Source of the DNA: Pelotomaculum sp.
GTDB taxonomy: Bacteria; Bacillota; Desulfotomaculia; Desulfotomaculales; Pelotomaculaceae
NCBI GenBank assembly: GCA_018435055.1
Contig: JAHDOA010000056.1
Location: forward strand, 1-37,038
Length of the DNA stretch: 37,038 bases
Direction: 5' to 3'
Part shown: in pieces, positions 9,001-36,150 of the stretch
Numbering within the stretch: the first letter of the stretch is position 1
How the letters are laid out: each line of letters opens with the position of its first letter
Notes under the pieces: generated by a model
Seen by the model: only the letters and a program-made list of their open reading frames with translations
Databases searched by the model: none
Told to the model about the DNA's origin: nothing
Position numbers and translations under genes: made by a program

Positions 9001-9726
9001 GTCACCGGCAACAGGGTTGACGGCAGCATTAAGAAGGATATTTTAGCCCAACTGAAAAGTCTAAAGGACGGGTATGTCGCAGAATATATGAAGCTGCACA
9101 AGCAGCTGCGGCTGGATGTCCAAGACGATACTAAAAAGAAAAAATTGCTCCAACATGATAATTTGAAGAAGTTAAATAAACTTAAAGATATCGAATTAAT
9201 GCCAAAGGGGCAGCTGCAGGAGTGGACTGAGGAACTGGGCAAGCTGAAGCCTTGTTACAATCTGGTTAAAGAAGACCTGGACAGCACTCCTATATGCCCG
9301 CACTGTTCCTTTAACCCCGTCAAAGAGATGGACAACAAACCGGTTTACGGCAGGGTGGAACTGCTGGAAGAAGCTCTTGAGCAAATGATCTCCCAGTGGA
9401 CGGAAACTTTGCTGGGGAACCTGGAGGACCCCATTGTTTCCAGTAATATTGCCCTTATTACCAGGGAGAGCGCTAGAGCAAGGGTGCAGGAGTTTATTAA
9501 CAAACGGGGGTTGCCGGACGACCTAGACAGTGAATTCATCAATGCCGTGCGGGAGGTATTGAGCGGGCTTGTTAAAATGAACGTCACTTTGGATGGAGTG
9601 AAAGCAGCCCTGCTGACCGGCGGCAGTCCCTGTACCGTGGAGGAGTTAAAGAACCGGTTTGACAAATTTGTGGATCAGACGGTTAAAGGAAAAGAGATTT
9701 CTAAAGTTAGAATTATATTAGAATAA
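6046..9726 (+). CDS. brxC: BrxC, BREX large AAA+-like ATPase (DUF6079-type)
   Basis: A 1226-aa P-loop ATPase, the size expected for BrxC, thought to act as the ATP-driven core of BREX anti-phage complexes. Seen: Walker A GNYGTGKSH at about residues 69-77, Walker B LVVVDELLDYL at about 176-186, a predicted coiled-coil-rich C-terminal third, and a CPHC zinc-knuckle half near residue 1084 (IC-P-HCSFNP). The start is ambiguous. The ATG at 6046 directly abuts AGGGG, whereas an in-frame TTG at 6055 would sit about 9 nt after it; the difference is three residues. Immediately downstream of brxF and 19 bp before pglXI, clearly co-transcribed. No lesion seen. Confidence 0.92.
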   Translation: MGSLKYGDLVQFEPIDTVVQVMEANDYTEAQRLVKTFVISDRMAEKIRDIVIPHLQIDEQKDNKALLIVGNYGTGKSHLMSVISALAEHAETLTLVQHADVKKISSDIAGKFKVLRTEIGASTMPLREIICQVITDYLETIGVDYTFPPLDQVTNNKDCLLEMMEQFEQQYPEHGFLVVVDELLDYLRTRKEQEIILDLNFLREIGEICKSTRFRFMAGVQESLFDSDKFQFVADTLRRVKDRFEQLRIAREDVAYVVANRLLKKDGHQKALVRAHLEKFYPLYENMAERSEQFVTLFPVHPVYLDVFEKVYVAEKREVLKTISTSIGNLINNEVPDDEPGLLSFDSYWEYILENPALRSMPDVRIVVEKSQRLEGIINTSFTIPLYKPAALKIIRALSVHRLTTGDINAPIGLAAGALRDGLCLHLPMPEEDAEFLKTTIETVLKEIRKTVSGQFISFNKENEQYYLDPQRDIDYDSEIEKRADQLSDDTLNRYYFNVLTQLLDRGESMITGHKVWEYEIEWKEKKTSRLGWLFFGAPNERSTAQPPRDFYLYFLKPFGDNDFEDEKKEDEVFFAFKKRDDKFTIPLKLYAAAVEMSLISQGDSKKSYNEKAVTHRKEVVKWVNSNLTSAYEVTYKGVSHKFVALIKGAGSGKDTKELVNTAASNLLSTYFNEQTPDYPTFSVQVTTKNRDQYAQDAIRWIATNIKTDIGAKILDSLELLEGNSLRPSNSRYAKFILDELKKKGAGQVVNRNELIRSIDTIDYAVKYRLEPEWVAVILAALVYDGAVTLALHGGKYDASNLEDLAKRPVKDIADFKHIEPPKDLPLPELKAIFEFLRLPPGQIVNPATREDAVNNMQKEVLTLVEEAATLQPQISNGIQSFGVSFLTEPEKEQAKKKLDSYKSFLESLQVYKTPAKLKNFRYTFKEIKEQQEAKAIVARLKELLDLKKETDLLSACINQAELAMPSDHPWVKEVQTKRRELTALVTGNRVDGSIKKDILAQLKSLKDGYVAEYMKLHKQLRLDVQDDTKKKKLLQHDNLKKLNKLKDIELMPKGQLQEWTEELGKLKPCYNLVKEDLDSTPICPHCSFNPVKEMDNKPVYGRVELLEEALEQMISQWTETLLGNLEDPIVSSNIALITRESARARVQEFINKRGLPDDLDSEFINAVREVLSGLVKMNVTLDGVKAALLTGGSPCTVEELKNRFDKFVDQTVKGKEISKVRIILE

Positions 9727-12331: not shown

Positions 12332-12775
12332 TTGAATAATAATTCCGGCGGTTACGTTATAACCGCGGATATCTCATCAATAAAGAATATAGTATGTGAC
12401 GAGGTATGGCAGATAACCCGTTCAAGTAAAAATATTAGTGGGGCAATATGGATGCATGCCCTGGCACCCAGCCCCGGCTTGTATAACAGGTTTTTAAATG
12501 AGTGGAAGGATAAGCCGGGTGAAGAATGGTGGCATATATATAAAGAGCTCTTTGAACAAGAGCTAAAAACGCAAATTAAACTTGATGCGTTAAGAAGACT
12601 GCAAAGTCTGGTTAAGTCAGGAAAAGTTATTGCGTTAGTCTGTTTTTGCGGGGACAGCAGATACTGCCACAGAACGTTAGTAGGGGATTCTTTAAAACAT
12701 AACGGGATAAGAGTGGATGAATTCATTAAAGAAAAATCAAAAAACAATGATGTAGAGCAGTTAACATTATTTTAA
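12332..12775 (+). CDS. DUF488-family protein (N3-like subclade)
   Basis: A 147-aa protein starting at TTG with a GGGAG ribosome binding site. The HALAPSPGLYNRFLNEW segment, the WWHIYKELFEQEL helix and the terminal CFCGDSRYCHRTLVGDSL match the pattern of DUF488 proteins of the COG3189 type (LAPS..LR...W, then Y..EL, then C/A..D...CH..LL). The CHR motif is shared with the next gene, so the two are distant paralogues in tandem. DUF488 biochemistry is unsettled; the conserved Cys-His-Arg suggests an enzyme or nucleic-acid-related role. Codon use is AT-rich, unlike the adjoining brxHII and like the middle of pglXI. Not part of the core BREX-3 set. Confidence 0.75.
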   Translation: MNNNSGGYVITADISSIKNIVCDEVWQITRSSKNISGAIWMHALAPSPGLYNRFLNEWKDKPGEEWWHIYKELFEQELKTQIKLDALRRLQSLVKSGKVIALVCFCGDSRYCHRTLVGDSLKHNGIRVDEFIKEKSKNNDVEQLTLF

Positions 12776-12789
12776 CGGAGGGAATAAGA

Positions 12790-13227
12790 TTGATCATAAT
12801 CTATACTATTGGTTTTTCGAAAAAGAATTTAAAACAGTTCATTACAAGATTAAAAGAAGCAGGTGTAAAAAAGTTGATAGATGTGCGTCTTAATAACACC
12901 TCGCAATTGGCTGGTTACGCTAAAAAAGATGATCTGAAGTATGTCCTCGACTTAATCGGTATCGGTTATGAACATCATTCGGAATTGGCACCGACCGAAG
13001 AATTACTAAAGAAATATAAGAAGAAACAAATAACCTGGCAAGATTACGAAAAAGAGTATAACAACATATTACTTCAAAGAGATCCATTAAAGAGTATAGA
13101 TTTCGGAAAGCAAGAAGGCCCTTATTGTTTGCTATGCTCCGAAGATAAACCGGAGAAGTGCCACAGGAGGCTATTGGCCGAATATTATTGCAATAATTTA
13201 CCGGAAGTTGAGATAGGACATTTGTAA
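12790..13227 (+). CDS. DUF488-family protein
   Basis: A classic DUF488 layout in 145 aa: IYTIGFSKKNLKQFITRLK at the N-terminus, the LIDVRLNN-S-LAGYAKKDDLKYVL motif, IGYEHHSELAPTEELLKKYKK, and a C-terminal LLCSEDKPEKCHRRLLAEY. TTG start with CGGAGGGAATAAGA ahead of it, 14 bp after the previous gene and 16 bp before the next, so the three extra genes form a cassette inside the BREX operon. The molecular role of DUF488 is not firmly established. Its appearance in a defence operon beside an OB-fold protein suggests nucleic-acid recognition or modification, which is inference. Confidence 0.85.
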   Translation: MIIIYTIGFSKKNLKQFITRLKEAGVKKLIDVRLNNTSQLAGYAKKDDLKYVLDLIGIGYEHHSELAPTEELLKKYKKKQITWQDYEKEYNNILLQRDPLKSIDFGKQEGPYCLLCSEDKPEKCHRRLLAEYYCNNLPEVEIGHL

Positions 13228-13243
13228 TTTCATATATGGGAGA

Positions 13244-13933
13244 GTGACTGTTTTGCCGGAAATCCGTATGATTTGTCTCGCTAATTCCAGAAAGTCAGGA
13301 GGCAGGTGTATAGCCGGGATTGATTATAATACGGGGGAATGGATCAGGCCGGTAAATGATGGTGGCGGCGAGTTGTCATTAAGGGATATTAATTATGAGG
13401 ATGGAAATACCCCTAAGGTTTTAGATATAATAGATGTTCCGGTTTTAGAATATCAACCGCTATATTATCAACCCGAAAACTGGGTTATCGATTGGAATTA
13501 TTACTGGACTAAAGTTGGTGAGTTGCCAGTTGGAGAACTAACTGATTACTGTGAAAATGAACTTTATATATTTGGAGGATCAAGTGATAGAGTATCTGAA
13601 GAACAAGTAAAATCAATAACAGCTCCCCGATCTTTGATTTTAATTAATGTTAAGGAAATATGTTTAATAAAGACGTGGAATTATAAAAATTTTCCACAAC
13701 TTAGAGCTATATTTGCATATAACGGAAGTAAATACAATTTAGTCGTAACTGATAAATCCCTGGAAGAAAAATTTCTAGATGGGGAAGTAGAGATTGGTCA
13801 ATATCCTTATGTAGGAAACCTATATTTAACCATCAGCCTCGGTGAGAATTTTTATGGTAATCATTATAAATTGCTGGCTTCCGTTATTTGCCTGGATAGA
13901 ACAAAACGAAAAGTATTGAATATCGAACCATAG
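13244..13933 (+). CDS. Dual OB-domain-containing protein
   Basis: A beta-rich 229-aa protein beginning RMICLANSRKSGGRCIAGIDYNTGEWIRPV, the typical opening of the dual OB-fold family (C-LA-S-K-GGRC-AG, then GEW-RP). The second half (LILINVKEICL, NYKNFPQLRAIFAYNG, YNLVVTDKSLE, YPYVGNLYLTISLGENF) fits a second OB-like barrel. OB folds usually bind single-stranded nucleic acid, so a role in substrate recognition for the adjacent DUF488 proteins is plausible but inferred. Start codon uncertain: the GTG at 13244 almost touches GGGAGA, whereas an in-frame TTG at 13253 has that motif about 10 nt upstream. AT-rich like the two genes before it. Confidence 0.8.
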   Translation: MTVLPEIRMICLANSRKSGGRCIAGIDYNTGEWIRPVNDGGGELSLRDINYEDGNTPKVLDIIDVPVLEYQPLYYQPENWVIDWNYYWTKVGELPVGELTDYCENELYIFGGSSDRVSEEQVKSITAPRSLILINVKEICLIKTWNYKNFPQLRAIFAYNGSKYNLVVTDKSLEEKFLDGEVEIGQYPYVGNLYLTISLGENFYGNHYKLLASVICLDRTKRKVLNIEP

Positions 13934-20639: not shown

Positions 20640-23600
20640 GTGATTTACATTAACTTTCTCCTTAAGTCACTAAAAGGAGTATGTGAGAGGTATTCTCTGC
20701 AGGATAAGGTACTGATTGTGCCGGGATATAGCATGGGGCATGAGCTTTGTGAAGCACTGGCCAGGAGTAGCGTAGGTTGGATAAACTTGCGTCCCGAAAC
20801 CACGACAGACCTGGCACACCAGGTAGCCGGTGAGGATCTGGCTGAAAAAGGTATCACTCTACTGACTGGGCAGCTGGCTACAGCAGTTGTGGAAGAGATC
20901 TATCACAACCTGGAAGAACAAAAATCTCTTCTCTACTTCGCTAGGGAAAGTTATTCCCCCGGGTTGGTCAGGGCTATAGCTTCTTCTATATATGAGCTGA
21001 GGTACTGTGGGGTTACCAGCGACACTCTTAACATAGACAGTTTTGTCAGCAAAGACAAAGGACAGGATATGGGTGTGTTGTTGAAGGCCTATGAGCAGTA
21101 CCTTACGGACCATAAATTTATTGACACCCCCGGCGTACTCTCATTTGCGCTGGATTTGCTTTCAAGGAGAACCAATGCAGATACAGATACTGTCTATTTG
21201 CTGCCTTCTTTCTTGCTGCTTGGCCCGCTGGAACGCCGGTTAATTGAATTGCTTTCCACTGGAAGGCTTATAATTTTAGCTGCTGATCCGGTTTATGGGT
21301 TATCTAGTCCAGGAATGGAGCCACAGGTACCTGTGCCGGAAAACGCCGTTTCATATACCGAAGTGGACCGTCTGCCCTGGCTGTATCAGGTTGACCAGTC
21401 GCCGGAGCCGGTTGGAGACGGTTCGTTGAACGTCTTTCATGCCTACGGGTTGATGAATGAGGTCAAGGAAATTTTCAGGCGGATTATGAAAGAAGGGATA
21501 TCTTTAGACAGCACGGTGGTTGCCTACACAAGCAGTGAATACATACCTGTCTTTTTTTCACTGGCCAGGCGGCTGGGGTTAAATTTAACGTATGGGGAAG
21601 GAATCCCCGTTACCCTGACGAGCCCTGGCAGGGTTCTGAAGGGCCTAATTGAATGGATCAGGTCTGACTACTCCGTCAGTATGTTAAAAACCCTGGTTTT
21701 AAGTGGTGATGTGGTGCTGCAGGGGGATAAAAAGGGAAGTGCCATTCTGACGCCGGCCGCAGCGGCACGGATGTTGAGCGTTTCCGGCATCGGCTGGGGG
21801 AGGGACCGTTATACCCTGCTGGAACGGATGGCCGAAACTTTTAAGGAAAAAGCTGCGGAAGAACTATCAGAGGAAGATGATGCGGACAGCAGGCGTGAGC
21901 GGTATTTGCGCCAGGGCGAGCTGGCTGAAGGGATATACGTTGTGATAAGCGGGTTAATCTCAAACCTGCCGGCGCCGGATGATGAGGGGAAAATCAGTTT
22001 CAGGGAGCTTACCGCTGGCCTCTCATACATCCTGCCAAAAATAACTAATACTATAAGCAGTATTGACGCCGCCGCACTGCAAGGGTTAATCAACAACCTG
22101 GTCCAGGCCGGGCAGTTTGCGTCTTTTAACCTGGAAATCGAAGAAGCTCTGGAGCGGGTGGAAAACATCCTTGAAGTTTTTCGGGTCGGGGCGTCTGGTC
22201 CCAAGCCCGGTCACCTGCACATTGTCAGTTACCAGAATTTAATCTGGTCATGCCGTCCTCACACCTTTATTGCCGGGTTGGGCGCAGACACATTTCCGGG
22301 CGGCGTCCGCCAGGATCCGGTCCTGTTGGATACTGAGCGCAGGAGGATTCATGCCGGGCTGCCGCTGGGCGCGGACAGGCCGGGTGAGAACCAGCAAATG
22401 ATGGCTCTTGTGCTTGCCTCCAGGAGGGGGCGGGTCACTTTAAGCTTTCCTTCCTTTGATGTTGTGGAAAACAGGTCTGTATTCCCTTCAAATATACTGC
22501 TTCAGGCATACCGCCTTTTACAAAAAGACACCTCATTGGATTACACGGACTTTATCAACTCCCTGGGCAAAACGGCGGGGTACTGTCCCCATGAAGGAAA
22601 CCCGGCTCTGGATGAAACAGAGTGGTGGATCGCCCGGGTCCTGACAGGGCCAGGATTGATTAACGGCAATGCGGCTGTAAGGGACTGCTGCCAGGGTATA
22701 GCGTTAGGCAGCAAAGCGCTTGAGGCCAGGCAAAGCCCGGGTCCGACTGAATATGACGGGCTGATTGCCGTTGATAATCAATTTGATCCCCGCCAAAATA
22801 CTGATCTGGTTATGTCCTGTAGCAAGATCGAGGACCTGGCCGGTTGCCCCTTTGCATATTTTCTAAAATACATTTTGCGGGTTCAGCCTCCGGACGAAGT
22901 CAGCTATGACCCAAACTGCTGGCTGGATCCACTGGAGCGGGGCTCTCTGCTGCACGAGTTGTTCTGTAGATTTATGAAAAAACTCTCGGCTGACAACGAA
23001 AGCCCCAGTTTGCCCAGGCATAAGACAATGATGATGGAGATGGCGGATGAGCTCATTGGAGATTACAGCAAGCAAATTCCAGCTCCCAGCGATCTAGTCT
23101 TCCAGCGGGAAAGAATGGATATCTACCGCTGCTGTGAAGTTTTCCTGGCTGCCGAAGGCGCCCACGGGGCAGGCGAGCCCGTGCTGTTTGAGGTTCCTTT
23201 CGGCCTGGGCGGTGAGGCAGTGGCGGTATCCGGCGCCGGCCTGGCGGACCCCATAAAAATTGAGCTGGGCAGTGGCGATGCCTTTTTGCTCAGGGGTAAG
23301 ATAGACAGGGTAGACAGGGCGCGGGAAGGGACTTACCAGGTATGGGACTACAAGACCGGAAGCGCCTATGGTTATGCGGAACACAGGCACTTTTGCGGCG
23401 GGCGCCAGATCCAACATGCCCTGTACGCTGTTGCAGCCGAACAAATAATAAAAGAGCTTTCACCAAAGTCATCTCCGCGGGTGGAGGTCTCCGGGTACTA
23501 TTTCCCCACAGAGCGGGGTGAGGGCCTGAAAATTGCCCGCCCGCAGGCAAACCGCGAAAGATTATCAGAACTTTTAAACCACTTATTTGATCTCCTGGCG

Positions 23601-23765
23601 GGAGGAATATTTATCGCTGCTGACCATGGGGAAAAATGCGGTATCTGTGACTATACCGTTGTTTGCGGCGGGGACAGTGCTGTGAACCGGGTGAAAAAGC
23701 TGCTGGCTGCGCCCGTCAGCAGTGCTTGCCTGGACCCCTGGAGGAGGTTGAAGGAATATGATTAA
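20640..23765 (+). CDS. addB: AddB-like PD-(D/E)XK nuclease with Fe-S cluster (helicase-inactive subunit)
   Basis: A 1041-aa AddB-type partner of the following AddA-like helicase, together resecting DNA ends. The C-terminus has LRGKIDRVDR and WDYKTG (PD-(D/E)XK) plus four cysteines placed like the AddB iron-sulphur staple: one in LAGCPFAYF (about residue 736) and CGICDYTVVC near 1000-1009. The N-terminus (DKVLIVPGYSMGHELCEALAR) has no Walker A GKT, unlike B. subtilis AddB, so this subunit is probably an inactive helicase. Start doubtful: GTG at 20640 sits against GGGG, while an ATT at 20649 is 5 nt after GGGGTGA. It overlaps addA by 8 bp. Could be a defence-type relative rather than housekeeping AddB. 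Confidence 0.8.
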   Translation: MIYINFLLKSLKGVCERYSLQDKVLIVPGYSMGHELCEALARSSVGWINLRPETTTDLAHQVAGEDLAEKGITLLTGQLATAVVEEIYHNLEEQKSLLYFARESYSPGLVRAIASSIYELRYCGVTSDTLNIDSFVSKDKGQDMGVLLKAYEQYLTDHKFIDTPGVLSFALDLLSRRTNADTDTVYLLPSFLLLGPLERRLIELLSTGRLIILAADPVYGLSSPGMEPQVPVPENAVSYTEVDRLPWLYQVDQSPEPVGDGSLNVFHAYGLMNEVKEIFRRIMKEGISLDSTVVAYTSSEYIPVFFSLARRLGLNLTYGEGIPVTLTSPGRVLKGLIEWIRSDYSVSMLKTLVLSGDVVLQGDKKGSAILTPAAAARMLSVSGIGWGRDRYTLLERMAETFKEKAAEELSEEDDADSRRERYLRQGELAEGIYVVISGLISNLPAPDDEGKISFRELTAGLSYILPKITNTISSIDAAALQGLINNLVQAGQFASFNLEIEEALERVENILEVFRVGASGPKPGHLHIVSYQNLIWSCRPHTFIAGLGADTFPGGVRQDPVLLDTERRRIHAGLPLGADRPGENQQMMALVLASRRGRVTLSFPSFDVVENRSVFPSNILLQAYRLLQKDTSLDYTDFINSLGKTAGYCPHEGNPALDETEWWIARVLTGPGLINGNAAVRDCCQGIALGSKALEARQSPGPTEYDGLIAVDNQFDPRQNTDLVMSCSKIEDLAGCPFAYFLKYILRVQPPDEVSYDPNCWLDPLERGSLLHELFCRFMKKLSADNESPSLPRHKTMMMEMADELIGDYSKQIPAPSDLVFQRERMDIYRCCEVFLAAEGAHGAGEPVLFEVPFGLGGEAVAVSGAGLADPIKIELGSGDAFLLRGKIDRVDRAREGTYQVWDYKTGSAYGYAEHRHFCGGRQIQHALYAVAAEQIIKELSPKSSPRVEVSGYYFPTERGEGLKIARPQANRERLSELLNHLFDLLAGGIFIAADHGEKCGICDYTVVCGGDSAVNRVKKLLAAPVSSACLDPWRRLKEYD

Positions 23766-26700
23766 ACAAGTTTTGCCTGACAGTGATTCACGCCGGGCTA
23801 TTGTGGAGAACCTGGATACCTGCCTGCTGGTAGAGGCAGGCGCCGGTTCCGGAAAAACACATAGCCTGGTCGAGCGCATGGTGGCTTTGGTTAAAGACAA
23901 TAAATGTAGCGTTGACAGAATTGCTGCCGTTACTTTCACCAGGAAGGCTGCCGCTGAGCTAAAGGGCAGGTTCCAGTTGGCCCTGGAAAAATCCATAGCC
24001 AGTGAAACCTGTCCGGACAAAAAGGAGAGGCTGAGCCGTGCGCTGAATAATCTGGACCGCTGCTTTTTAGGAACTATACACTCATTCTGTGCAGCTTTAT
24101 TGAGAGAGCGCCCGGTTGAAGCCGGTTTAGAGCCGGACTTTGTAGAAATAGAGGAGCTTGAAGATACGCTGCTGCGCGAGCGGGCCTGGGATGAGTATTT
24201 AACTCTGGTACAGGTGGAGAACCCGCAGGCGCTGGAAGATTTGTTGAAAATCGACGTTAAAGCCCAGGATTTGAAAGAGTTTTACAGGATCTTGTCCGAC
24301 TACCCGGAGGTGGAGGTAGACAGTCATGATTCCCCCGCGCCGGACCTGATGGCTGTACGAGTGGAGTTAGACAAACTGCTGGAATTAGCTGTAACGCTTC
24401 TTCCCGGCAGCGTACCGTTTAAAGGCTGGGATAACCTGCAGTCACTCCTGCGCAGGGCGCTGAGGTGGCGCAGGGTTTTTGGCCTGGATGATGACATTGC
24501 TTTACTGCGTCTGCTGGTAATACTCGATAAACAGGGGTCCGTGACTCAAAACCGCTGGCTTTCAAGTGATGACGCCAAAACAGCGCGGGATGCCTTTAAC
24601 CAGTTTCGGGACGAACATATTATCCCGGTGCTAAAGGCCTGGCGCGAACACAGACATAAGTGCCTGGTCGACTTTGTCCTGCCGGCGGTTGAGCTTTATC
24701 GCAAACGGCGGACGGAGCGCTCCAAGCTGAACTTCCAGGATCTTTTGATGTCCGTTGCCGCCCTGCTAAAAAGCAACCCCGAGGTGCGTGGTTATTTTCA
24801 GGAGAGGTATACACACCTGCTGGTTGATGAGTTCCAGGATACTGACCCGATCCAGGCGGAAATCATGTTTTACCTCACCGGCCAGGACGTATGCGAGCAG
24901 GACTGGCGCAAGCTTATCCCCCGACCGGGAGCGCTTTTTGTAGTGGGAGATCCGAAACAGTCCATTTACCGCTTCCGCCGCGCAGACATCGACACCTATA
25001 ACGAGGTGAAAAAGTTGATAGCCCAGAGCGGCGGCAGGGTGCTGCACTTAACGTCCAATTTCCGTTCAGTGAAGGCCATTGGGGACTGGGTTAACCCGGT
25101 GTTTAAAAACCTTTTGCCCGGATCGGCTACTTCTTTTCAAGCTGCTTTCACTGACCTTGACACTGTGAGAGCAAACGCAGAGGGGAGAGCCGGGGGGATC
25201 AGGACAATCAATATCCCCAAGGTTCACCGGAATTCCCAGAGGGAAATCGCTTTCATCGACGCCGGCCGTATAGCCCGCTGGATAAGGTGGGCTGTCGACG
25301 GCGGGATTACCCTGGACAGGACTGCTGAAGAAATCGAGGCCGGCTTAACTGAAAGGCCCTGGCCGGCTGATTTTTTAATCCTGCTGCGCTATAAATCAAA
25401 TATGGACCTTTACGCCAGGGCTTTAGAAGAGCAGGGCATCCCTTTCCAGTTAGCCGGGGGCGGCGGGTTTTCAGGTTCTGCGGAGATAGCCGAACTGCTG
25501 AAGGTTCTGAAAGCTATTTTAGAGCCGGATAATCCTATATGGTTGGTTTCTGTCCTCAGAGGCGGCCTTTTCGGGCTAAGCGACAACCAGCTGTGGTTAT
25601 TCAAACAGGCGGGCGGGCACTTTAACTTCTACGCCAGTATCCCGGACAGCCTGGAGCAAAAGGAGCGGGAGATTTTTGAGTGGGCGTATGGCAGGTTAAG
25701 AACCTGCCGCAAGTGGGTGCAGGGGCTTCCGGCCAGTGCTGCCCTGGAAAATATCATGCAGGAGCTAGGTGTTATACCCTGCGCTCTAACCGGGGAGCTT
25801 GGCCGCAGCCGCTCCGGACACCTGTTGCAGTGCCTGGAGTTATTCGCCGCAGCCGAGCGCGGAGGGACCACCTCATTTGCATCGCTGGTAGAATCACTTG
25901 AGCTTCTCATAGAAACAGGTGTGGAAGAAGAGATTAATATCGCCCCCTGGGAAAATGACGCCGTAAGGCTGATGAACCTGCACAAGGCCAAAGGGCTTGA
26001 AGCGCCGGTGGTTTTCCTGGCCAACCCCGGAAAAGATGTTGTCTGGGAGCCTTCTGTACATATTAATAGAACTGGCGGTTTGCCGCGCGGCTACTATGTG
26101 ATTAAAAAGAAACAAGGATACACCGAAGAAATACTGGGCCAGCCTTTAAACTGGGATGAGTTAGCCGCTGTAGAGAAACAGTACCTTGAAGCCGAGGAAA
26201 CCCGTTTGCTCTATGTAGCTGCCACCAGGGCAAAAAACCTGTTGGTTATAAGCGTTTACCCGGAAAAGCCGGAAATCAGCCCCTGGAAGCTCTTTGAAGA
26301 ACACATGGAAGGCGTTCCCGCATTGGAGGAGGTTAAGGTCAGCCAGGCTCCAGCGATTGTGGGCGGTGATACGATTACTAAACAAGACCTGATCAAAGCA
26401 AGGGATGGTTTTCTTGGCCCGGGGAGCTCCATTAATGGCCCCAGTTACAGCGTTGCTTCTGTTACCTCCCTGTCAAAAGAGGGGATTGAAGGTCCGGAGA
26501 GGAAAAGTACCGGCCGCGGGCAGTCCTGGGGCAGGGTGATTCACAGAGTACTGGAATCCGTTGTTAAGAAAGTGCCTGCTAACCTGGATCTTTTTGTTGA
26601 GAATGTTATTGCAGAGGAAGATAGGGCGCCGGAGGAAAAAGAGCAGGTCTTAAGTCTGATAAAAAAAATTATGCAGTCAACTATTTGGCAAAGGATGCTG

Positions 26701-27003
26701 CAGAGTGAAAAGCGGTTTGTGGAAGTCCCTTTTTCAGTGAAGGTTGGAGAGGGAAAACAAGATTTTAAAGGGGATACTGTTATTTCCGGAGTTATTGACC
26801 TCGTTTTCCTTGAGGACGATGGCTGGGTAATAGTAGATTACAAGACTGATACGGTAGAAAACGAAGAAGGTCTTGCAAATCTAGTAAGATACTATCGACC
26901 TCAAGTGGAAATGTACCGGAGGTTCTGGGAGGAGATAGCCAAAGAAAAGGTTTGCGAAGCCGGGCTGTATTTCACGCACTTAGACAGGTGGGTTGGGGTA
27001 TGA
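23758..27003 (+). CDS. addA: AddA-like UvrD/RecB-family helicase-nuclease
   Basis: An ATP-dependent SF1 helicase with a C-terminal RecB nuclease domain. Motifs: I EAGAGSGKTHSLVERM (about residues 26-41), Ia AAVTFTRKAAAELKGR, II LLVDEFQDTDPIQ (about 354-366), III GDPKQSIYRFRRADI, IV LRYKS, V MNLHKAKGLEAPVVFL, VI RLLYVAATRAKNLLV, then GVIDLVFLEDDGW-VDYKTD (nuclease core) and a QVEMYRRF helix. At 1081 aa it is shorter than B. subtilis AddA (about 1230 aa). The ATG overlaps the end of the addB-like gene, so the pair is translationally coupled. The nuclease catalytic residues look intact. Confidence 0.85.
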   Translation: MIKQVLPDSDSRRAIVENLDTCLLVEAGAGSGKTHSLVERMVALVKDNKCSVDRIAAVTFTRKAAAELKGRFQLALEKSIASETCPDKKERLSRALNNLDRCFLGTIHSFCAALLRERPVEAGLEPDFVEIEELEDTLLRERAWDEYLTLVQVENPQALEDLLKIDVKAQDLKEFYRILSDYPEVEVDSHDSPAPDLMAVRVELDKLLELAVTLLPGSVPFKGWDNLQSLLRRALRWRRVFGLDDDIALLRLLVILDKQGSVTQNRWLSSDDAKTARDAFNQFRDEHIIPVLKAWREHRHKCLVDFVLPAVELYRKRRTERSKLNFQDLLMSVAALLKSNPEVRGYFQERYTHLLVDEFQDTDPIQAEIMFYLTGQDVCEQDWRKLIPRPGALFVVGDPKQSIYRFRRADIDTYNEVKKLIAQSGGRVLHLTSNFRSVKAIGDWVNPVFKNLLPGSATSFQAAFTDLDTVRANAEGRAGGIRTINIPKVHRNSQREIAFIDAGRIARWIRWAVDGGITLDRTAEEIEAGLTERPWPADFLILLRYKSNMDLYARALEEQGIPFQLAGGGGFSGSAEIAELLKVLKAILEPDNPIWLVSVLRGGLFGLSDNQLWLFKQAGGHFNFYASIPDSLEQKEREIFEWAYGRLRTCRKWVQGLPASAALENIMQELGVIPCALTGELGRSRSGHLLQCLELFAAAERGGTTSFASLVESLELLIETGVEEEINIAPWENDAVRLMNLHKAKGLEAPVVFLANPGKDVVWEPSVHINRTGGLPRGYYVIKKKQGYTEEILGQPLNWDELAAVEKQYLEAEETRLLYVAATRAKNLLVISVYPEKPEISPWKLFEEHMEGVPALEEVKVSQAPAIVGGDTITKQDLIKARDGFLGPGSSINGPSYSVASVTSLSKEGIEGPERKSTGRGQSWGRVIHRVLESVVKKVPANLDLFVENVIAEEDRAPEEKEQVLSLIKKIMQSTIWQRMLQSEKRFVEVPFSVKVGEGKQDFKGDTVISGVIDLVFLEDDGWVIVDYKTDTVENEEGLANLVRYYRPQVEMYRRFWEEIAKEKVCEAGLYFTHLDRWVGV

Positions 27004-27073: not shown

Positions 27074-28189
27074 GTGACCAGGTATCTTCTTGTGAAAGAA
27101 GGGCAGAAAGAGTTTTTGGTTCAAGAAGAAAAAATTAAGGCTGAAAACGATTTGCAGGAAGTTGTAAAGAAGAACCCGGAGTTAATCCCGGTTGAAGATC
27201 TGAATTTGTTGAACCTTCTTGTCGTTGGTCGTGAGACATCTTTGCCTTCAGGCAGTATCGACCTGATGTGTTTAGATGAAAAAGGAACTATCGTGATTGT
27301 CGAGTTTAAAAAAGGGCCGGAAAATCCAGATTCAAGGCGTGTGATTGCGCAACTTCTAGATTATGGGTCCCACCTATGGGGGCTGACATTTGAGGAGTTC
27401 GAAGGGCTATGCAGTAACTATTTTAATAGTGCGAGGTGTACCGATCCTAGATTCTACAGGAAGAACAACCTCCGTGACGCTTTCAAGGAAATGTGGGGAC
27501 AGGGCTCTGATGAGACTAATGAAAGTGGTGAAGACGAAAGCGGGTGGGAAAGTTTCAGGGATGGTATTTCTCGCTGCCTGGCTGATGGTAGTTTTTATTT
27601 TCTTGTTACGAGTACACATATTGGTGATGTTTTGAGGCGGACCATGAAGTATTTGACTCAGACAAGCAAAGCTACTTTTGCAGGTATTGAGATTGACCAT
27701 TTTTCAAGTGACGGCAAAGAGATATTTGTACCCAGGGCTTACCTTCCGGGAGCAAAGCCCCCCTCCATTTCATCACGGACTACGATGCAAAATTTTCTTG
27801 AGAAAAGTGATCCTACAGCAAGGCAGGTTTGGGAAAATTTATTCCAGGTTCTGGCAATTTATGGTGAGACTATTTATTGGGGGAAAGTTGGCTTTTCATT
27901 CAGGGTCAAGGTCCAGGGAAGACTGCAGAGTATACTCTGGGGATTCACAAGAGATTCAAGTTGGGGTATTGATGCGTTGCAGTTTGTCATGCCAAGGATT
28001 GAACTTTCAGAGGATATCAAAATGATATTTGAGAAGTTTCAAAACAATCTTTCGTTTTTAGGTGAAGACTTGATTAAAAAGTCAACCTATGTGTACGTAG
28101 TGGTGGGGAATGGCCTTAGGCTAGACAATATAGACAAGTTTGTCAGCGCTTTAAATACAGTGGTTGAAGATCTTAGGGCGTTAAATTAA
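27074..28189 (+). CDS. NucS/DUF91-like PD-(D/E)XK protein
   Basis: A 371-aa protein whose N-terminal third has a PD-(D/E)XK nuclease core of the NucS/DUF91 style: ENDLQEVVKKNPELIP, then GRETSLPSGSIDLMCLDEKGTIVIVEFKKGPENPDSRRVIAQLLDYGSHLWG. The D of SID, the E of VEF and the K of KKG supply the catalytic set, followed by the Q-LDY helix. The rest has no motif I recognise (LGEDLIKKSTYVYV near the end). GTG start with GGGGTGGGG upstream; 70 bp behind the AddA-like gene and probably in its transcript. It might be a DNA-end or mismatch nuclease partner; that is inference from position. Confidence 0.8.
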   Translation: MTRYLLVKEGQKEFLVQEEKIKAENDLQEVVKKNPELIPVEDLNLLNLLVVGRETSLPSGSIDLMCLDEKGTIVIVEFKKGPENPDSRRVIAQLLDYGSHLWGLTFEEFEGLCSNYFNSARCTDPRFYRKNNLRDAFKEMWGQGSDETNESGEDESGWESFRDGISRCLADGSFYFLVTSTHIGDVLRRTMKYLTQTSKATFAGIEIDHFSSDGKEIFVPRAYLPGAKPPSISSRTTMQNFLEKSDPTARQVWENLFQVLAIYGETIYWGKVGFSFRVKVQGRLQSILWGFTRDSSWGIDALQFVMPRIELSEDIKMIFEKFQNNLSFLGEDLIKKSTYVYVVVGNGLRLDNIDKFVSALNTVVEDLRALN

Positions 28190-28326
28190 CTCAGGATTAA
28201 GCAACATTTTTACATTACATAATTTTTAATATTAGCATGAACTACGCTCCTTCATTACTAAGACAGTTTGCGACACATGTAAATTAACAAAAAACTTTTT
28301 ATTGGTATTTAAAAAGGAGAACACAA

Positions 28327-29547
28327 ATGCCTCAATCATTACAAATTGGCTGGATTGATTACGGCAGCCGTGACAGGAACAAAATTCTTTCTATTCTAAG
28401 CCTGCTATCTGCTCCGGAAGCAGTGGATGAGCTTGGAATCGGTGTTGTGCGGGACGGCTTCGCCGATTTACTCTTTCCCGGCACATCGACGATTCAGACC
28501 AGGGCAAAATATTTTCTGCTTGTGCCCTACATCATGATGGAGCTGGAGCGGGAAAACATTATGAATCCCAAAGTATTTCTGGATAGACTGTCGATCGAAG
28601 AAATTGCATTAATAAGTATACTCAAGAAAGACAATGCTGAAGGTGTTATCGGCGGGCGCTCAGGCGAGAAACTGCAGAGAAAGCCGTCCAGCATCTACTG
28701 GAACGGGATTAACACCTTTGGTATCTTTCAAAATTATTCAAGGCTATCGTTGAATGGTTATACGCGGGCTGTCTGTGCTCTGAAAAGAGAAGAAAGAATG
28801 CTGTCCGCCGCAGGACATATCGACAAAGGCGAGGGGGCTGACGACGCTGATAAAATGTACTGCGGCGCCAGCGGATTTTGGCGGGTTCCGCCGCCACCCG
28901 AAAACTGGCGTGAAAGTGTAACTATTGAACTCACTGATGAAGAAGCAGGTTTCCTAAGGGACAGAATTATTAAATCCGAGCATTCAAAAGACTCCCTGCT
29001 GGCTCATATCCTGCGTAATAATCTCTACGAGGTTGTTACTTATGATGACATATCAATTATCGGAAAGAAATTTGAACTTCCACAAGATATCCGCGAAGAT
29101 TATGAAATGGCGCAGAGATTCGCTGAATTCATCTATGGCGCGAATATCCGCTTCAATGTGATCCTGTCCGATGGGCAGAATGATGAAGCAAATGAAGAAT
29201 GGAAAATCTGGTATGGCTCAGTAACCAACGGCTTTGTCCGGAATTATGATATTTACGAAGCTGTCAACCGCCTTTCAATAAGCAGGCACAATCGTGCGAG
29301 AATGATACCCTTTTTCGATAAATGGAAGAAAGCTGTACTATCCGGGGATGTTGCAGTTATGGATAACCTCATAATCGCCCGCGAAATAGAGCTGAAGGGC
29401 AAGGAACGGGCCAAGCTGAACAGTGAAAATTCAAGCTGGCAGGATGGAGTATGGCTGGGAGGCAGGAGACTGCAATACCGCTTCCGCAACACGCGCCGGC
29501 TGATTGAAGATATCTGCAATGGACTGGGGGTCGATAAGAATGTTTAG
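28327..29547 (+). CDS. DUF6361 family protein
   Basis: First gene of the helicase-PLD cassette. The N-terminus (QIGWIDYGSRDRNKILSILSLL, ELGIGVVRDGFADLLFPGTS, IQTRAKYFLLVPYIMMELE) carries the strongly conserved features I associate with DUF6361, a family of unknown activity often seen in defence neighbourhoods. The GGASGFW-like CGASGFWRVPPPP and WLGGRRLQYRFRNTRRLIEDI near the C-terminus are also typical. The ATG has AAGGAG at 7 nt. It ends 8 bp past the start of the PLD gene. No catalytic motif is obvious; the conserved RD and R-K-F segments suggest a nucleic-acid-processing protein, which is inference. Confidence 0.8.
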   Translation: MPQSLQIGWIDYGSRDRNKILSILSLLSAPEAVDELGIGVVRDGFADLLFPGTSTIQTRAKYFLLVPYIMMELERENIMNPKVFLDRLSIEEIALISILKKDNAEGVIGGRSGEKLQRKPSSIYWNGINTFGIFQNYSRLSLNGYTRAVCALKREERMLSAAGHIDKGEGADDADKMYCGASGFWRVPPPPENWRESVTIELTDEEAGFLRDRIIKSEHSKDSLLAHILRNNLYEVVTYDDISIIGKKFELPQDIREDYEMAQRFAEFIYGANIRFNVILSDGQNDEANEEWKIWYGSVTNGFVRNYDIYEAVNRLSISRHNRARMIPFFDKWKKAVLSGDVAVMDNLIIAREIELKGKERAKLNSENSSWQDGVWLGGRRLQYRFRNTRRLIEDICNGLGVDKNV

Positions 29548-31333
29548 ACCCGCCGAAGACAGGCTTGATTACGCAGATATTCTGGCGCCCCCTGCCGGCT
29601 ATAAGTGTGAATTTGCCATTGGGACAACGTATTCTCTTGACCTGGAAGCTTTGATCGGTGTGCCCCTCGCCCTGTTCCTTGGGGAAGAGATGGAAGGAAC
29701 GCTGCTTGAAAACCCGGTATATGTATTGGAGGCACTGCGCAAGAGCGCGGACAAGTTCGTCTTGTTTTGCGAGGGCGGGCAGATCAAAGTGCCGAATAAA
29801 GCAAACCCGGTGTTTGCTTTGCTGGAGAGCAGTATTTTTGAGGTAGCCTTGAAAAATGAAAAGTCCTTTCACCCAAAGGTGTGGCTGATCAAGTATATGG
29901 ACGCCAATGATAAGGAGCTTTATCGTTTTATCGTCCTGAGCCGCAACCTGACCTTTGACCGTAGCTGGGATGCAGCGGTTGTTCTGGAGGGGGAAGCCGG
30001 AAGCCGGAAAATCCTTAAAAACCGACCGCTAATAGATTTTTTAACATATCTTCAGGGAAGAGCCAATGATAAAAAGAAGAAAAAATTAATCGGCAGTATT
30101 GCCGGGGAACTTACAAATGTGCATTTTAAGACGGGAGACAAGCGTTTTTCTGATTTTTCCTTCCTCCCTCTTGGTATAGGTGGGGTGTATAACAAGGATT
30201 CCACGAGTCTTTTTGACAATTACCATGACCTGCTGGTATTTTCCCCTTTCCTCAGCAGGGATACTGTCCTGGAGTTGGACGGTTTATCGCTTAAAAACGC
30301 GCATAAAACGCTGATAACCCGCAGGCCGGAAATAACTAAGCTAACCGACGAGTTACTATCCAGTTTTGAATGTTATTGTCTCAAAGATACGGTAGTTGAC
30401 GGCGAGGAAGTTATCAGCGAATCAGAAGGTGCAGTAGACCTGCAAAAGCAGGATATACACGCCAAGCTCTATTTCAAAACAAAGTACAGCGAGCACAATA
30501 TCTATATCGGGTCGGCTAATTGCTCAAAGAGCGCGTGGGACGGCAATGTAGAGTTTATGCTGAGACTTAAATATGAAAAATGGGGCTTTCGGATTTCGCA
30601 AATCATCGATGAGCTTTTCGGCAGAAATAATAAAGACTACGATGAGAGGCAAAATCCTTTTGAGCGGGTTATCACCGTTCCTGAAGGTGCGGTGGAGAAG
30701 GAAGATATACAGGAACGTCTGCAAAAAGCTATAAAAAGGCTCTGTCGCTCCAGGACAAGTGCCCTGGTTATAGAAAACAGCGGCAAATATGATATCAGCA
30801 TTCAGTTTGACAGGCGGTTTATCGCTGCTGACGTGGATTTGACCATCGCCGCCCTTGGCGGGGGTAAATCCATAAAGCTTGAGAGCACGGCTCTTTTATC
30901 CGGATTATCACTATTAGAGCTGGGTGAGTTTTATATTGTAACCGCCAAAATTGGAGAAGACAGCTTGCGCCGGGTCATTAAAATCCGCACGGAAGGTATT
31001 CCGGTTGAAAGGGACGGCATGGTATTCAAGAGTATCATCAAAGACCAAAACACCTTCCTGCGTTACGTCGCTTTTCTGCTTTCTGATGATTACCTGCTGG
31101 CAGCATTGGAGCAGGCTGAGCAAAAGGCATCGTGGGCAAAGGGCTGGAATCTGCACGGCTATGACATGCCGGTAATCTATGAAAACATGCTGCGTGCCGC
31201 AGCCAAGTCCCCAGAAAAACTGCGGGAGGTCGACGCGATTATCCAGCGGTTGAATGATAAGGAAATCGTGCCACCTGAATTTGAAAAGTTATACACCACC
31301 TTTTTAAAAGCGAGTAGGAGGATAAAGACGTGA
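29540..31333 (+). CDS. Phospholipase D-fold nuclease-like protein
   Basis: A 597-aa PLD superfamily protein with two HxK motifs: FHPKVWLIKY followed by SRNLTFDRSWD (about residues 110-143) and IHAKLYFKTKY followed by IGSANCSKSAWDGNVEF (about 305-335). This arrangement, with SRN/SAN after each HxK, is that of the PLD-like nucleases coupled to SF2 helicases rather than of lipases. The start is taken as the ATG at 29540, with GGGGGT about 9 nt upstream; an in-frame TTG at 29504 has no better site. It overlaps DUF6361 by 8 bp and the helicase by 4 bp, so the three are one translationally coupled unit. Confidence 0.85.
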   Translation: MFRPAEDRLDYADILAPPAGYKCEFAIGTTYSLDLEALIGVPLALFLGEEMEGTLLENPVYVLEALRKSADKFVLFCEGGQIKVPNKANPVFALLESSIFEVALKNEKSFHPKVWLIKYMDANDKELYRFIVLSRNLTFDRSWDAAVVLEGEAGSRKILKNRPLIDFLTYLQGRANDKKKKKLIGSIAGELTNVHFKTGDKRFSDFSFLPLGIGGVYNKDSTSLFDNYHDLLVFSPFLSRDTVLELDGLSLKNAHKTLITRRPEITKLTDELLSSFECYCLKDTVVDGEEVISESEGAVDLQKQDIHAKLYFKTKYSEHNIYIGSANCSKSAWDGNVEFMLRLKYEKWGFRISQIIDELFGRNNKDYDERQNPFERVITVPEGAVEKEDIQERLQKAIKRLCRSRTSALVIENSGKYDISIQFDRRFIAADVDLTIAALGGGKSIKLESTALLSGLSLLELGEFYIVTAKIGEDSLRRVIKIRTEGIPVERDGMVFKSIIKDQNTFLRYVAFLLSDDYLLAALEQAEQKASWAKGWNLHGYDMPVIYENMLRAAAKSPEKLREVDAIIQRLNDKEIVPPEFEKLYTTFLKASRRIKT

Positions 31334-34300
31334 CTGAGTTATTTAATAAGGAAAAGCAGATCCTCTCCAGCCTCAAAGATTTCCAGAGGGCAACAGTGGA
31401 AAGGATATTTTCTCTCTTTACCAGCGGGCGCAGCCGTGTTCTTGTGGCAGATGAAGTCGGTCTCGGCAAAACGCTGATCGCCAGGGGGGTGATAGCTAGG
31501 ACTGCTGTTTATCATAAGCAAAATTTAAATGACGATTTATTCAAGGTTGTATATGTCTGCTCCAACCAGAGCATTGCCGCGCAGAACCTTTCCAAGCTCA
31601 AAATTAATGAGAGCGACAGTGTGGAGGGACTTTCAGATACCCGGCTGTCCATGCAGCATCTAAAGATTTTTAAAGACGAGATGGAGAATAAAAAGAGACA
31701 AAACTACATGCAGCTGATCCCGCTTACGCCGAACACATCTTTTAATATGACCGGGGGTAGCGGCAGCGTGCGGGAACGCGCATTGATCTATGCCGTACTG
31801 CACCGTTATGAACCGCTCACTCCTTATAAAGAGGAATTAGAAATACTGATGGTTGATAATGCCACTAGCAGCTGGCACGCATGGGCACGAGACTTGTACG
31901 AGAACCAGGTTGCCGCTTGCGACGAGGACAGTGGCGGGCGTTACCTCCAAACTGTTTTAAAAAGTGTGGACAGCTATCTTTCTACCCATAAGGGCCTGCT
32001 GTCAGAGGTAACAGATTTCTGCAGCAAAATACGCATGAGCGGACGCAGGCAAAGCGGGTCTTATCCAATCATCCACAAGCTTCGCCGCATGATGGCCGAA
32101 ATAAGTGCAGGGCTGTTGGACGCTGACCTGGTTATAATGGATGAATTTCAGCGCTTTCCGGAGCTTATCAGGACCGATGCGGACAATGAGACCGCCATGT
32201 TGGCCCGGCGCTTTTTCAATGCGGCCAAGCGCGACAATGAAAAAGTAAAGATCCTGCTGCTTTCGGCAACTCCATACAAGCTATACTCCACTCTGGAGGA
32301 AATAAATGAAAACCAGGCGGACGAGCACTACCGCGAATTCATACAGGTGACGGATTTCCTGTTTGAAAGCGACTCTTTGAAAAAGGCTGAATTCCGGCAG
32401 GTGTGGAGGGATTATTCGATATCACTGAATGAAATAGGCACAACAGATCTGACGGTCCTGGCCGCCAGGAAAAACAGTGCCGAGGATGCTCTCTACCAGG
32501 GCATCTGCAGGACAGAGCGTCTGGTAGTCGAAGGCGCCGACAAGTTTGTAGATATAGAGACCGCGAAAAGCACCTTGGATGTTTCCGAAGGAGATATACT
32601 TTCCTACATCAGGGCCGATAAGCTGCTCCTGGATATAGGTCTGAAGGAACATATACCGGTTGATTATATAAAGTCTGCCCCATATATCTTTTCCTTCATG
32701 GAGCATTATAAGCTAAAAGAAAAAGTATACGCTTTTTTCAAGAAAAATCCCGACAAACTGAAACTGGCACGCAAACCGGAACTGTGGGTAAACGAGGATT
32801 TGATTGCCGGGTACAAAAAGCTGCCGACCACCAACACAAGGCTGAAGAGGGTAAAGGAAGAAGCCTTGCCTAAGGGCGCTGAAAGGCTGATCTGGATACC
32901 CCCCTCGAAGCCGTACTATGAGCCGGGCGGGGTGTTTTCAGGCCTAAAAGATTTTTCAAAGATCCTGGTGTTTTCCGCCTGGGAGATGGTGCCCAGGGCT
33001 GTCGCGGCCATGCTTTCATATGAAGCAGAGCGACTGACAGTAGGTGAACTGATCAAAAAATCACCCAACCCCGAGCGAGAGAACCGCAGCTATTTCCCGT
33101 ATAGAAAAAAAGTGCGGTTTCCTTCACCCCGCCTTAAGTTCAACATGCGTGAAGGCGCACCCGCATCCATGGCACTCATGACCCTGCTGTATCCCTGCGT
33201 TACGCTGGCAAAACTATATAACCCGCTTCAGGCGCTGAACCAGGGGCTGACCAGAAGGCAGATTGAAGCTGAACTGCGCAAGAATATTAAAGAGCTGTTG
33301 GATACAATTGTTTTTACGCCTAAGAAAAAAGGCGGTTATGACGAAAGCTGGTATTATATAGCGCCGTTACTTCTTGACAGGCATGAAAAACTGATTAGTT
33401 CCTGGCTTAATCAACCGGCTTTAATTTGGGACTTAAAAAACAACGAGACAGAGGCTGCGGATGAAGATGATGACCGGAATGTTCTGGAAAAGCATTTTGA
33501 CGAATTGAAGGATATTCTGAAAAATGCAGATAAGCTGGAACTTGGACGGAAACCGCGGGACCTTGTAAATGTGCTGACCAGGATGGCCATGGCTTCGCCG
33601 GCAGTATGCTCCCTGCGTTTATTCGGGCTGGAGCTGCCGGACTCCCCGGCTTTGTCAGTACGCCTTGCTAAGACATTTCTCGGCCGGTTCAATATACAGG
33701 AGGCCACCGCCATAGTCGAACTCTGTTATGGCCATTACGATCCACACTGGCAAAATGTGCTGCGGTATTGCGTTGATGGGAATTTGCAGGCGGTGCTTGA
33801 CGAGTATACGCATATCCTCACTGATGATAACGGGTTAGTGTATGCCTCACAGGAAAAACGATCGAAAACGCTTTGTGAAAGAATGTGCTCCTCCTTTAAA
33901 ACACACACGGCAAGTTATAATGTGGACACATATCGGAAGTTTCGCGACCGGATCATGAAAGGTGAAAAGCATAACACCGGCATTGAAAAAGGTGAATTGC
34001 GTTTTATAAGGATGCGTTCAGGATATGCTGCCGGTTTTTATGACACAAGGGGTGAAGGCAAAAGCCTGCAGCGCAAGGATAGCCTGCGCCTGGCTTTTAA
34101 TTCTCCCTTCCGTCCCTTCGTTCTGGCAACCACGTCCATTGGGCAGGAGGGACTGGATTTCCATTACTACTGCAGAAAAATTGTGCACTGGAACCTGCCT
34201 GCTAACCCGATTGATCTGGAGCAGCGCGAGGGGCGGATCAACCGGTACAAGTGTCTTGCCATACGGCAAAACATTGCAAAGAAATATGGTTATAAAGGCT

Positions 34301-34632
34301 TTAATGAAGATATTTGGCGCGAGATGTTTGAAAGAGCCAACCAGGAGGAAAAGCGTGGTATGTGTCCAGAACTGGTACCTTATTGGTGCCTGCCGGACCA
34401 TGACAAGATGATTAAAATCGAGCGGATTGTGCCGATGTATCCTCTGAGTAAGGACCAGGCAAAGTATGGGCGGCTGATTAAAATACTGTCGCTCTACCGC
34501 CTCAGCCTGGGACAGGCGCGGCAGGAGGAATTGCTGGAATATGTCCTTCAGAGCCAGTTGGACGAAGAACAAATCAAAGAATTGTTTATCAATCTAAGCC
34601 CCTATTTCAAGGGCCAGGCTTGTTCAGAATAA
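31330..34632 (+). CDS. SF2 DEAD/DEAH-type helicase of the PLD cassette
   Basis: A 1100-aa helicase. Motifs: VLVADEVGLGKTLIARG (Walker A, about residues 35-51), VVYVCSNQSIAAQNL (Ia region), DLVIMDEFQRF (motif II, DEFQ, about 267-277), LLLSATPYKLYS (III, about 310), KILVFSAWEMV (IV), ATTSIGQEGLDFHYYCRKIVHWNLP (V, about 933-957) and LEQREGRINRYK (VI, about 962-973). An unusually long region lies between the two RecA lobes. GTG start overlaps the PLD stop by 4 bp (GTGA) with AGGAGG upstream. Proposed to translocate DNA for the PLD subunit, by analogy with DISARM and other helicase-nuclease defence pairs. Confidence 0.88.
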   Translation: MTELFNKEKQILSSLKDFQRATVERIFSLFTSGRSRVLVADEVGLGKTLIARGVIARTAVYHKQNLNDDLFKVVYVCSNQSIAAQNLSKLKINESDSVEGLSDTRLSMQHLKIFKDEMENKKRQNYMQLIPLTPNTSFNMTGGSGSVRERALIYAVLHRYEPLTPYKEELEILMVDNATSSWHAWARDLYENQVAACDEDSGGRYLQTVLKSVDSYLSTHKGLLSEVTDFCSKIRMSGRRQSGSYPIIHKLRRMMAEISAGLLDADLVIMDEFQRFPELIRTDADNETAMLARRFFNAAKRDNEKVKILLLSATPYKLYSTLEEINENQADEHYREFIQVTDFLFESDSLKKAEFRQVWRDYSISLNEIGTTDLTVLAARKNSAEDALYQGICRTERLVVEGADKFVDIETAKSTLDVSEGDILSYIRADKLLLDIGLKEHIPVDYIKSAPYIFSFMEHYKLKEKVYAFFKKNPDKLKLARKPELWVNEDLIAGYKKLPTTNTRLKRVKEEALPKGAERLIWIPPSKPYYEPGGVFSGLKDFSKILVFSAWEMVPRAVAAMLSYEAERLTVGELIKKSPNPERENRSYFPYRKKVRFPSPRLKFNMREGAPASMALMTLLYPCVTLAKLYNPLQALNQGLTRRQIEAELRKNIKELLDTIVFTPKKKGGYDESWYYIAPLLLDRHEKLISSWLNQPALIWDLKNNETEAADEDDDRNVLEKHFDELKDILKNADKLELGRKPRDLVNVLTRMAMASPAVCSLRLFGLELPDSPALSVRLAKTFLGRFNIQEATAIVELCYGHYDPHWQNVLRYCVDGNLQAVLDEYTHILTDDNGLVYASQEKRSKTLCERMCSSFKTHTASYNVDTYRKFRDRIMKGEKHNTGIEKGELRFIRMRSGYAAGFYDTRGEGKSLQRKDSLRLAFNSPFRPFVLATTSIGQEGLDFHYYCRKIVHWNLPANPIDLEQREGRINRYKCLAIRQNIAKKYGYKGFNEDIWREMFERANQEEKRGMCPELVPYWCLPDHDKMIKIERIVPMYPLSKDQAKYGRLIKILSLYRLSLGQARQEELLEYVLQSQLDEEQIKELFINLSPYFKGQACSE

Positions 34633-34684
34633 GGTAATTTATTTCTTTGCACATAAATTAATCTTTTAAAAGTGAGGTAGAAAA

Positions 34685-35296
34685 TTGAGTGAGATTAAAG
34701 TTTGGGCTGCTGATATTGGATCTATAAGTAATAATAAATTTGGCTGGTGTAGATCGGCTAGTAAATCTGACTATAAATTAGGTAGAGATATTAGAGATTT
34801 TGCAAAAAGAATATCTGATGATATTACCAATAATAGGAAGGTAGCTTTAGGATTTGAATGTCCCTTATTTGTTCCTGTGACAAAAAACCCTATTGGTTTA
34901 ACAAGTAAACGTGATGGTGAAGGGGATCGGCCTTGGTCAGCCTCAGCAGGAACTTGTGTTTTAGCTGCTGGCTTATCCGAATGTGTTTGGGTTTTTGAGC
35001 AAATACGTGATATTTCAAAGGTCAATATTAATCCCACTTTTGACTGGGATTACTTTATACGAGAGGATGCGAACATGTTTATCTGGGAAGCCTTTGTCAC
35101 CGGAAAAGCAAAGAGTCTTTCAGATGAAGGTGATGCAAGAATTGCAGCCAATACATTTTGGGATAGGTATCCTAATATTATTAGCGATGTTTTTGCAGAA
35201 AATCCATACTCCTTGGTAGGGGCTGCCTTATTACGGGCGGGTTTATCAGAAGACTTAAAATTTTTATCCCAACAATGTATTGTAATTAAGAGTTAA
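34685..35296 (+). CDS. DUF429-like predicted RNase H-fold protein
   Basis: A 203-aa protein beginning KVWAADIGSISNNKFGWCR, an RNase H-fold first-strand acidic motif (D-G-S). It continues with VALGFECPLFVPV (second acidic region), LTSKRDGEGDRPWSASAG and a late WEAF. These recall DUF429-type predicted nucleases of the RNase H superfamily. TTG start with GAGGT 7 nt upstream. It follows the helicase by 52 bp in the same direction and is much more AT-rich than the three cassette genes, so it may be either a fourth member or an independent later arrival. No transmembrane segment. Catalytic completeness cannot be confirmed by eye. Confidence 0.65.
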   Translation: MSEIKVWAADIGSISNNKFGWCRSASKSDYKLGRDIRDFAKRISDDITNNRKVALGFECPLFVPVTKNPIGLTSKRDGEGDRPWSASAGTCVLAAGLSECVWVFEQIRDISKVNINPTFDWDYFIREDANMFIWEAFVTGKAKSLSDEGDARIAANTFWDRYPNIISDVFAENPYSLVGAALLRAGLSEDLKFLSQQCIVIKS

Positions 35297-35334: not shown

Positions 35335-36150
35335 TCAAACCTTATATATCTCCCGTACTCTGCCGGCCAGTTCATACATTTCTTTCCTGAGCCAGACTGG
35401 TTCCAACACCTCGACGGTGTCGCCCCACTGTACAAGCCAGGTTTTCATCTCATCAATGCCGCAGACTTCAAAAGACATGATCACCGAGCCATCGGCGGGG
35501 TCTTCCTCTATTTCCTGTGAAGGGTGGTAAATCAACCGCTTCACCCTGTGGGCAACTTCCGGGATGAACTTCAACCTGACTTTGCAGGTCTCCCCGTCGT
35601 TCATAATTCCCCAGCTCTGGCCCATATGTTCCTTTAGTGAGAAATCTTCAGGGAACTCAAAGCGCTCCGATGTATAGGGGAAGATATCTGTGATCTGGTC
35701 TACTCGGAAGACGCGGATGGCTTCTCTCTTAAGGCAGTACGCTACCAGGTACCAGTTATGTCTTTTGCAAACCAGCCCGTACGGTTCTACCACCCGCTGG
35801 GTGTTCTGCCCGCTATGGGCGACGTAGTACCAGAGCTTTACCCGGCAGCAGTCCCGCAGAGACTGTACCAGCTTGGTGAATATTTCACTTACCTTGTCCG
35901 GTTCTGCCAGCTTCTCATCAACTATATGTATCCTCTCCTGCAGCTGCTCAACGGGTAGGGCCATGGGGTTGTACTTATATTTAAACAGCGTACCAATTAA
36001 TGCATCCTTGAGCTCGTTAGTATGGCCGGCCAGGGCGGTGCCCTTTTGCTGAAGCAAGCTGAGGAATATAACCAGCGCTTTTTCCGGGCTGATGGAGGGG
36101 AGGTAGCCTATGCGGGAATTGACGATGATCCCACAACGCTTTTGTTGTTC
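35335..36150 (-). pseudogene. WYL-domain transcriptional regulator, N-terminus lost
   Basis: The C-terminal part is a good WYL ligand-sensing regulator: RVVEPYGLVCKRHNWYLVAYCLKREAIRVFRVDQITDI, KRLIYHPSQEIEED and a WLVQWGDTVEVLEP-LRKEM tail. The frame opens after a stop at 36151-36153 and reads IGYLPSISPEKALVIFLSLLQQKG, the usual linker before WYL, but the winged-helix DNA-binding domain that should precede it is absent. Only a TTG at 36057 could start a shortened product of 240 aa. The breakpoint near 36110-36120 coincides with ankyrin-like sequence on the opposite strand. Likely a relic that cannot bind DNA; a truncated protein could still be made. Confidence 0.75.

Follow-up and report, generated by a model that had tools for sequence, protein, structure and literature searches.

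The locus raises the question whether three tightly overlapping genes for a DUF6361 protein, a PLD nuclease-like protein and a large SF2 helicase form an undescribed defence system or belong to one that has been named before, and which of the surrounding genes are part of it. The window, i.e. the whole stretch of DNA that was analysed, comprises 37038 bases and represents the entire contig 12 of a genome of 3.28 Mb in 70 contigs. Comparison of the genome contigs showed that the closest genomes are metagenome-assembled genomes of Desulfotomaculaceae and Pelotomaculum. The operon consists of the following genes:

28327..29547, plus strand: zacA, DUF6361 protein of 406 aa (basis: PADLOC PDLC03828, Pfam PF19888, dN/dS)
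29540..31333, plus strand: zacB, PLD-like protein of 597 aa (basis: PADLOC PDLC03829, catalytic columns)
31330..34632, plus strand: zacC, SF2 (RapA/DrmD-like) helicase of 1100 aa (basis: PADLOC PDLC03830, motif columns)

Profile searches of the triple, which the original prediction had proposed, returned the PADLOC families ZacA, ZacB and ZacC, all matching over essentially the full profile and in the correct order. Thus, the view that this is an undescribed system without a named match had to be given up, and the outcome that had been named beforehand as speaking against it, identity with an already named system, was the one obtained, because the triple is Azaca according to the PADLOC profiles. 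The more general part, a coupled helicase/PLD/DUF6361 anti-phage operon inside a defence island, was supported. Judged from the sequence, the operon at 28327-34632 can be taken, with a probability of about 97%, to be an intact Azaca (ZacABC) system of a Desulfotomaculaceae-like bacterium. All three genes, their order, the full-length profile matches and the PLD and helicase domains are common to Azaca and the window copy, and no essential difference was found. The locus is already known in the sense that this intact copy is an ordinary representative of a system with a name. 'Azaca (ZacC)' is found among the helicase-bearing defence systems in DefenseFinder-based work (PMC12278908), and one review assigns a PLD-like domain to Azaca, crediting Millman et al. 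2022 (PMC10952713). Literature searches yielded no paper for DUF6361 and only unrelated words for ZacABC itself.

All four predicted open reading frames were present (28327-29547, a PLD frame ending at 31333, 31330-34632 and 34685-35296). The longest frame for zacB starts with TTG at 29504, which would yield a protein of 609 aa and an overlap of 44 bp with zacA. The ATG at 29540 was favoured as start codon because the column of Met13 (numbering of the long frame) is nearly invariant among homologues. With this start, the predicted overlap of 8 bp between zacA and zacB holds, and the overlap of 4 bp between zacB and zacC follows from the coordinates of the frames, so that the three genes are adjacent in the order A-B-C on a single strand. 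Scans for promoters and terminators gave results at or near chance level.

For ZacA, the PADLOC profile matched with an E value of 1.7e-98 (profile positions 4-394 of 396), and the DUF6361 assignment was verified by Pfam PF19888 (E 9.8e-36). The ZacA alignment contains 37 invariant columns. Comparison with the PDB by sequence yielded nothing meaningful, and no relative of known structure was detected; a structure prediction from two sequences (pLDDT 36) gave an unusable model that carries no weight. ZacA was present in 10 of 398 genomes of the phylum, including the window's own, and in 0 of 14 well-known control genomes. Scans of viral contigs with ZacA and ZacB found no relatives of either protein.

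ZacB matched its PADLOC profile nearly from end to end (E 6.8e-157, positions 1-582 of 586), in agreement with the PLD nuclease-like protein that had been proposed, whereas the Pfam PLD domain was weak (E 2e-4). Two half-sites were found, here numbered from the TTG at 29504. The first comprises H123/K125 and N148, the second H319/K321, G336-S337-x-N339 (GSAN) and E350. These residues were invariant in 10 of 10 sequences, i.e. the window protein and nine homologues that are 25-88% identical to it. The second half-site aligned with a PLD nuclease (PDB 7clg, E 0.0003) and weakly with BfiI (2c1l) and R.NgoFVII (4rct), both at E 0.3. Neither half-site contains the Asp that is found in the classical HxKxxxxD motif, and therefore the putative activity of ZacB is deduced from enzymes of the BfiI/NgoFVII type.

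The 1100-aa SF2 helicase predicted as the third gene was recovered by the profiles as well (ZacC, E 0, positions 5-1017 of 1019). It contains a Walker A GKT at 46-48, DEFQ at 271-274 and SAT at 312-314, and C-terminally TSIGQEGLDFH at 935-945 and QREGRINR at 965-972; about 600 residues separate motifs III and V. GKT, DEFQ, SAT, GQEGLDFH and QREGR were conserved in all of the ZacC sequences that span them (the annotated protein of locus L047 begins at GKT). Comparison with the closely related locus L012 gave dN/dS values of 0.125 for zacA, 0.185 for zacB and 0.142 for zacC. As each value lies between 0.12 and 0.19, all three genes are maintained as proteins by purifying selection. The zacABC block was kept in eight further loci from the phylum sample or from plasmids (L015, L016, L017, L021, L022, L023, L047 and L048), with ZacC identities of 33-54%, and the gene order, the HxK half-sites of ZacB and the ZacC motifs were all retained across these distant relatives.

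Motifs, gene order and selection are read directly from the sequences; the substrate, the order of action and the fate of the cell are inferred. ATP-driven ZacC would bind to invading DNA or track along it and would recruit ZacB or release, and thereby license, its cleavage. The two half-sites of ZacB, lying in one chain, would come together as a single composite PLD active site, which would cut the DNA. ZacA would most likely sense or gate the complex and thereby spare the host DNA. We consider such a PLD nuclease licensed by a helicase, with ZacA as sensor or gate, to be the probable mode of action. The same Azaca genes could instead lead to an abortive outcome, in which ZacC together with ZacA would sense infection or damaged DNA and release ZacB, as in Hachiman, and indiscriminate cleavage would kill or arrest the infected cell. 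The sequence fits directed and abortive cleavage alike, and PMC12278908 describes HamB of Hachiman as a sensor of damaged DNA that sets the nuclease HamA free. We regard the abortive outcome as the less likely of the two. Hachiman (HamAB) shares the logic of a helicase plus a nuclease, and the comparison is a mechanistic one only: Hachiman has two genes in contrast to the three of Azaca, and no Hachiman profile matches were reported for the Zac proteins. The mechanism of Azaca is given as unknown in reviews of 2023 and 2026 (PMC10482375; PMC12926258). Therefore, although the locus itself is not new, the list of invariant catalytic residues is useful, as it provides targets for mutagenesis.

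The original prediction had extended the system to a fourth gene, a "DUF429-like" protein with an RNase H fold, which starts 52 bp after zacC, as had been stated, and is followed by a regulator gene:

34685..35296, plus strand: sporadic protein of 203 aa, possibly RNase H-like, between zacC and the WYL gene; not part of Azaca
35335..36057, minus strand: truncated gene for a WYL-domain regulator, 240 aa versus 333-334 aa in L012 and L014

The proximity and the common strand of the fourth gene and zacC are what a new defence system of four genes, with the RNase H-like protein as fourth component, would have in its favour, but the relatives make it very improbable. In three near relatives (L012, L014 and L050), zacC is followed directly by the WYL gene after about 6-110 bp; the spacing is about 110 bp in L012 and below 10 bp in L014 and L050, versus 702 bp including the fourth gene in the window. 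Because these junctions lack it, the fourth gene is an insertion or a rare passenger, and its proposed membership was not upheld. In a search of 60 genomes of relatives the only match was the window's own genome, the same was true for 398 genomes of the phylum (absent from 397 others), and a homologue was found in 0 of the 12 Azaca loci tested. The best relatives are encoded on plasmids of Vibrio, Tsukamurella and Rhizobium (30-44% identity over the protein), where they adjoin unrelated genes and are not near Azaca. The G+C content is 0.37, versus 0.48 for zacC. The DUF429 label was not borne out either, as Pfam gave no match even at E 10, and the plasmid relatives yielded no Pfam family, their sole match being a chance one to CheR (E 0.15). 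The protein and its relatives contain an invariant acidic set (D10, E58, E135 and D150), which would fit an RNase H-like fold. A PDB comparison by sequence gave nothing meaningful, the structure predicted from the lone sequence (pLDDT 31) was unusable and carries no weight, and scans of viral contigs found no relatives of the protein.

The borders of the module were apparent from L012, where the same left neighbours, o1 and o2, precede a zacABC block whose proteins are 88-90% identical to those of the window, and where the WYL gene is present as well. At the DNA level, the window is homologous to L012 from 28306 to 34637, i.e. from 21 bp 5' of zacA to 5 bp 3' of zacC, and these limits therefore mark the module borders; the homology resumes at 35339, within the WYL gene. 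The window copy and its relatives thus set the borders of Azaca at exactly three genes, which removes a false lead and provides a clean, intact copy with close relatives from the Desulfotomaculaceae lineage. The window's WYL regulator lacks the N-terminal 94 aa, homology ends at 36109, and the unrelated sequence from 36110 onwards is likely a rearrangement border. A relative from the same family, L053, carries a decayed Azaca locus (8993-9712), in which large deletions have left ZacA 1-38, ZacA 345-379 and ZacC 929-1098.

There is hardly any chance of a divergent DISARM-like system, which likewise combines a PLD protein with an SF2 helicase and has a helicase core in common with ZacC (DrmD): the matches of ZacC to DrmD/DrmA (E 1e-11 to 2e-14) span only about 60 residues of this core, ZacB matched DrmC at E 0.035, and the Zac profiles match full-length. 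No full-length DrmA/DrmD helicase was found, ZacC reached 60 bits with the NCBIfam DrmD model versus a cut-off of 610 bits, and the operon contains DUF6361 and has neither DrmB (DUF1998) nor a methyltransferase of its own. DISARM was rejected on these grounds, as had been predicted. The predicted absence of DrmB was confirmed by a profile scan of the window's large frames; a PglX methyltransferase is present, which belongs to BREX.

The BREX system predicted for the same island was indeed found on the contig. The window's Azaca has a type-III-like BREX operon and, in addition, an AddAB-like pair beside it; an unrelated gene is inserted after zacC. In the window, o2 and zacA are separated by about 25 kb, which contain BREX, the AddAB-like pair and a PDC-S11 gene, versus about 1.2 kb in L012; BREX is therefore a separate neighbour, and the best syntenic locus lacks both BREX and the AddAB-like pair. 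Neither the RNase H-like gene nor the BREX operon nor the AddAB-like pair is a part of Azaca; all of them are neighbours. The stretch of the BREX operon between pglX and the BrxHI-like helicase gene (12332-13933) carries two DUF488 genes together with a dual-OB gene (PADLOC candidate PDC-M45).

In three loci, a NucS/Shedu-like gene (PADLOC candidate PDC-S11) closely precedes zacA:

27074-28189 of the window: PDC-S11 gene, just upstream of zacA
5781-6770 of L022: PDC-S11 gene, just upstream of zacA
9775-10904 of L053: PDC-S11 gene, just upstream of zacA

Other defence neighbours were a type I restriction-modification system in L047, DruE just upstream in L015, a DUF1156 methyltransferase, PLD_Helicase and PDC-S11 in L022, and a Mrr-type nuclease in L016; they were seen in a handful of loci, with no background count behind them. 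Recruitment of optional accessory nucleases by Azaca, namely the PDC-S11 gene and the upstream second AddAB-like pair, appears improbable. This second pair (20640-27003) encodes proteins of 1041 and 1081 aa with PD-(D/E)xK domains in both, and another AddA-like protein of 1282 aa is encoded on contig 31 of the host genome. In L050 the end of an AddA-like gene lies just upstream of zacA, with the PDC-S11 gene absent, and in L053 AddB, AddA and PDC-S11 genes precede the zac remnant. Because the pair or its end adjoins zac genes in these two loci, it may be a defence-linked paralogue. Further upstream in the window, the 3' end of the L012 o1 gene is matched with 94% identity by a stretch of 130 bp (3724-3853); this second, partial copy is present in addition to o1 and may mark an old insertion.
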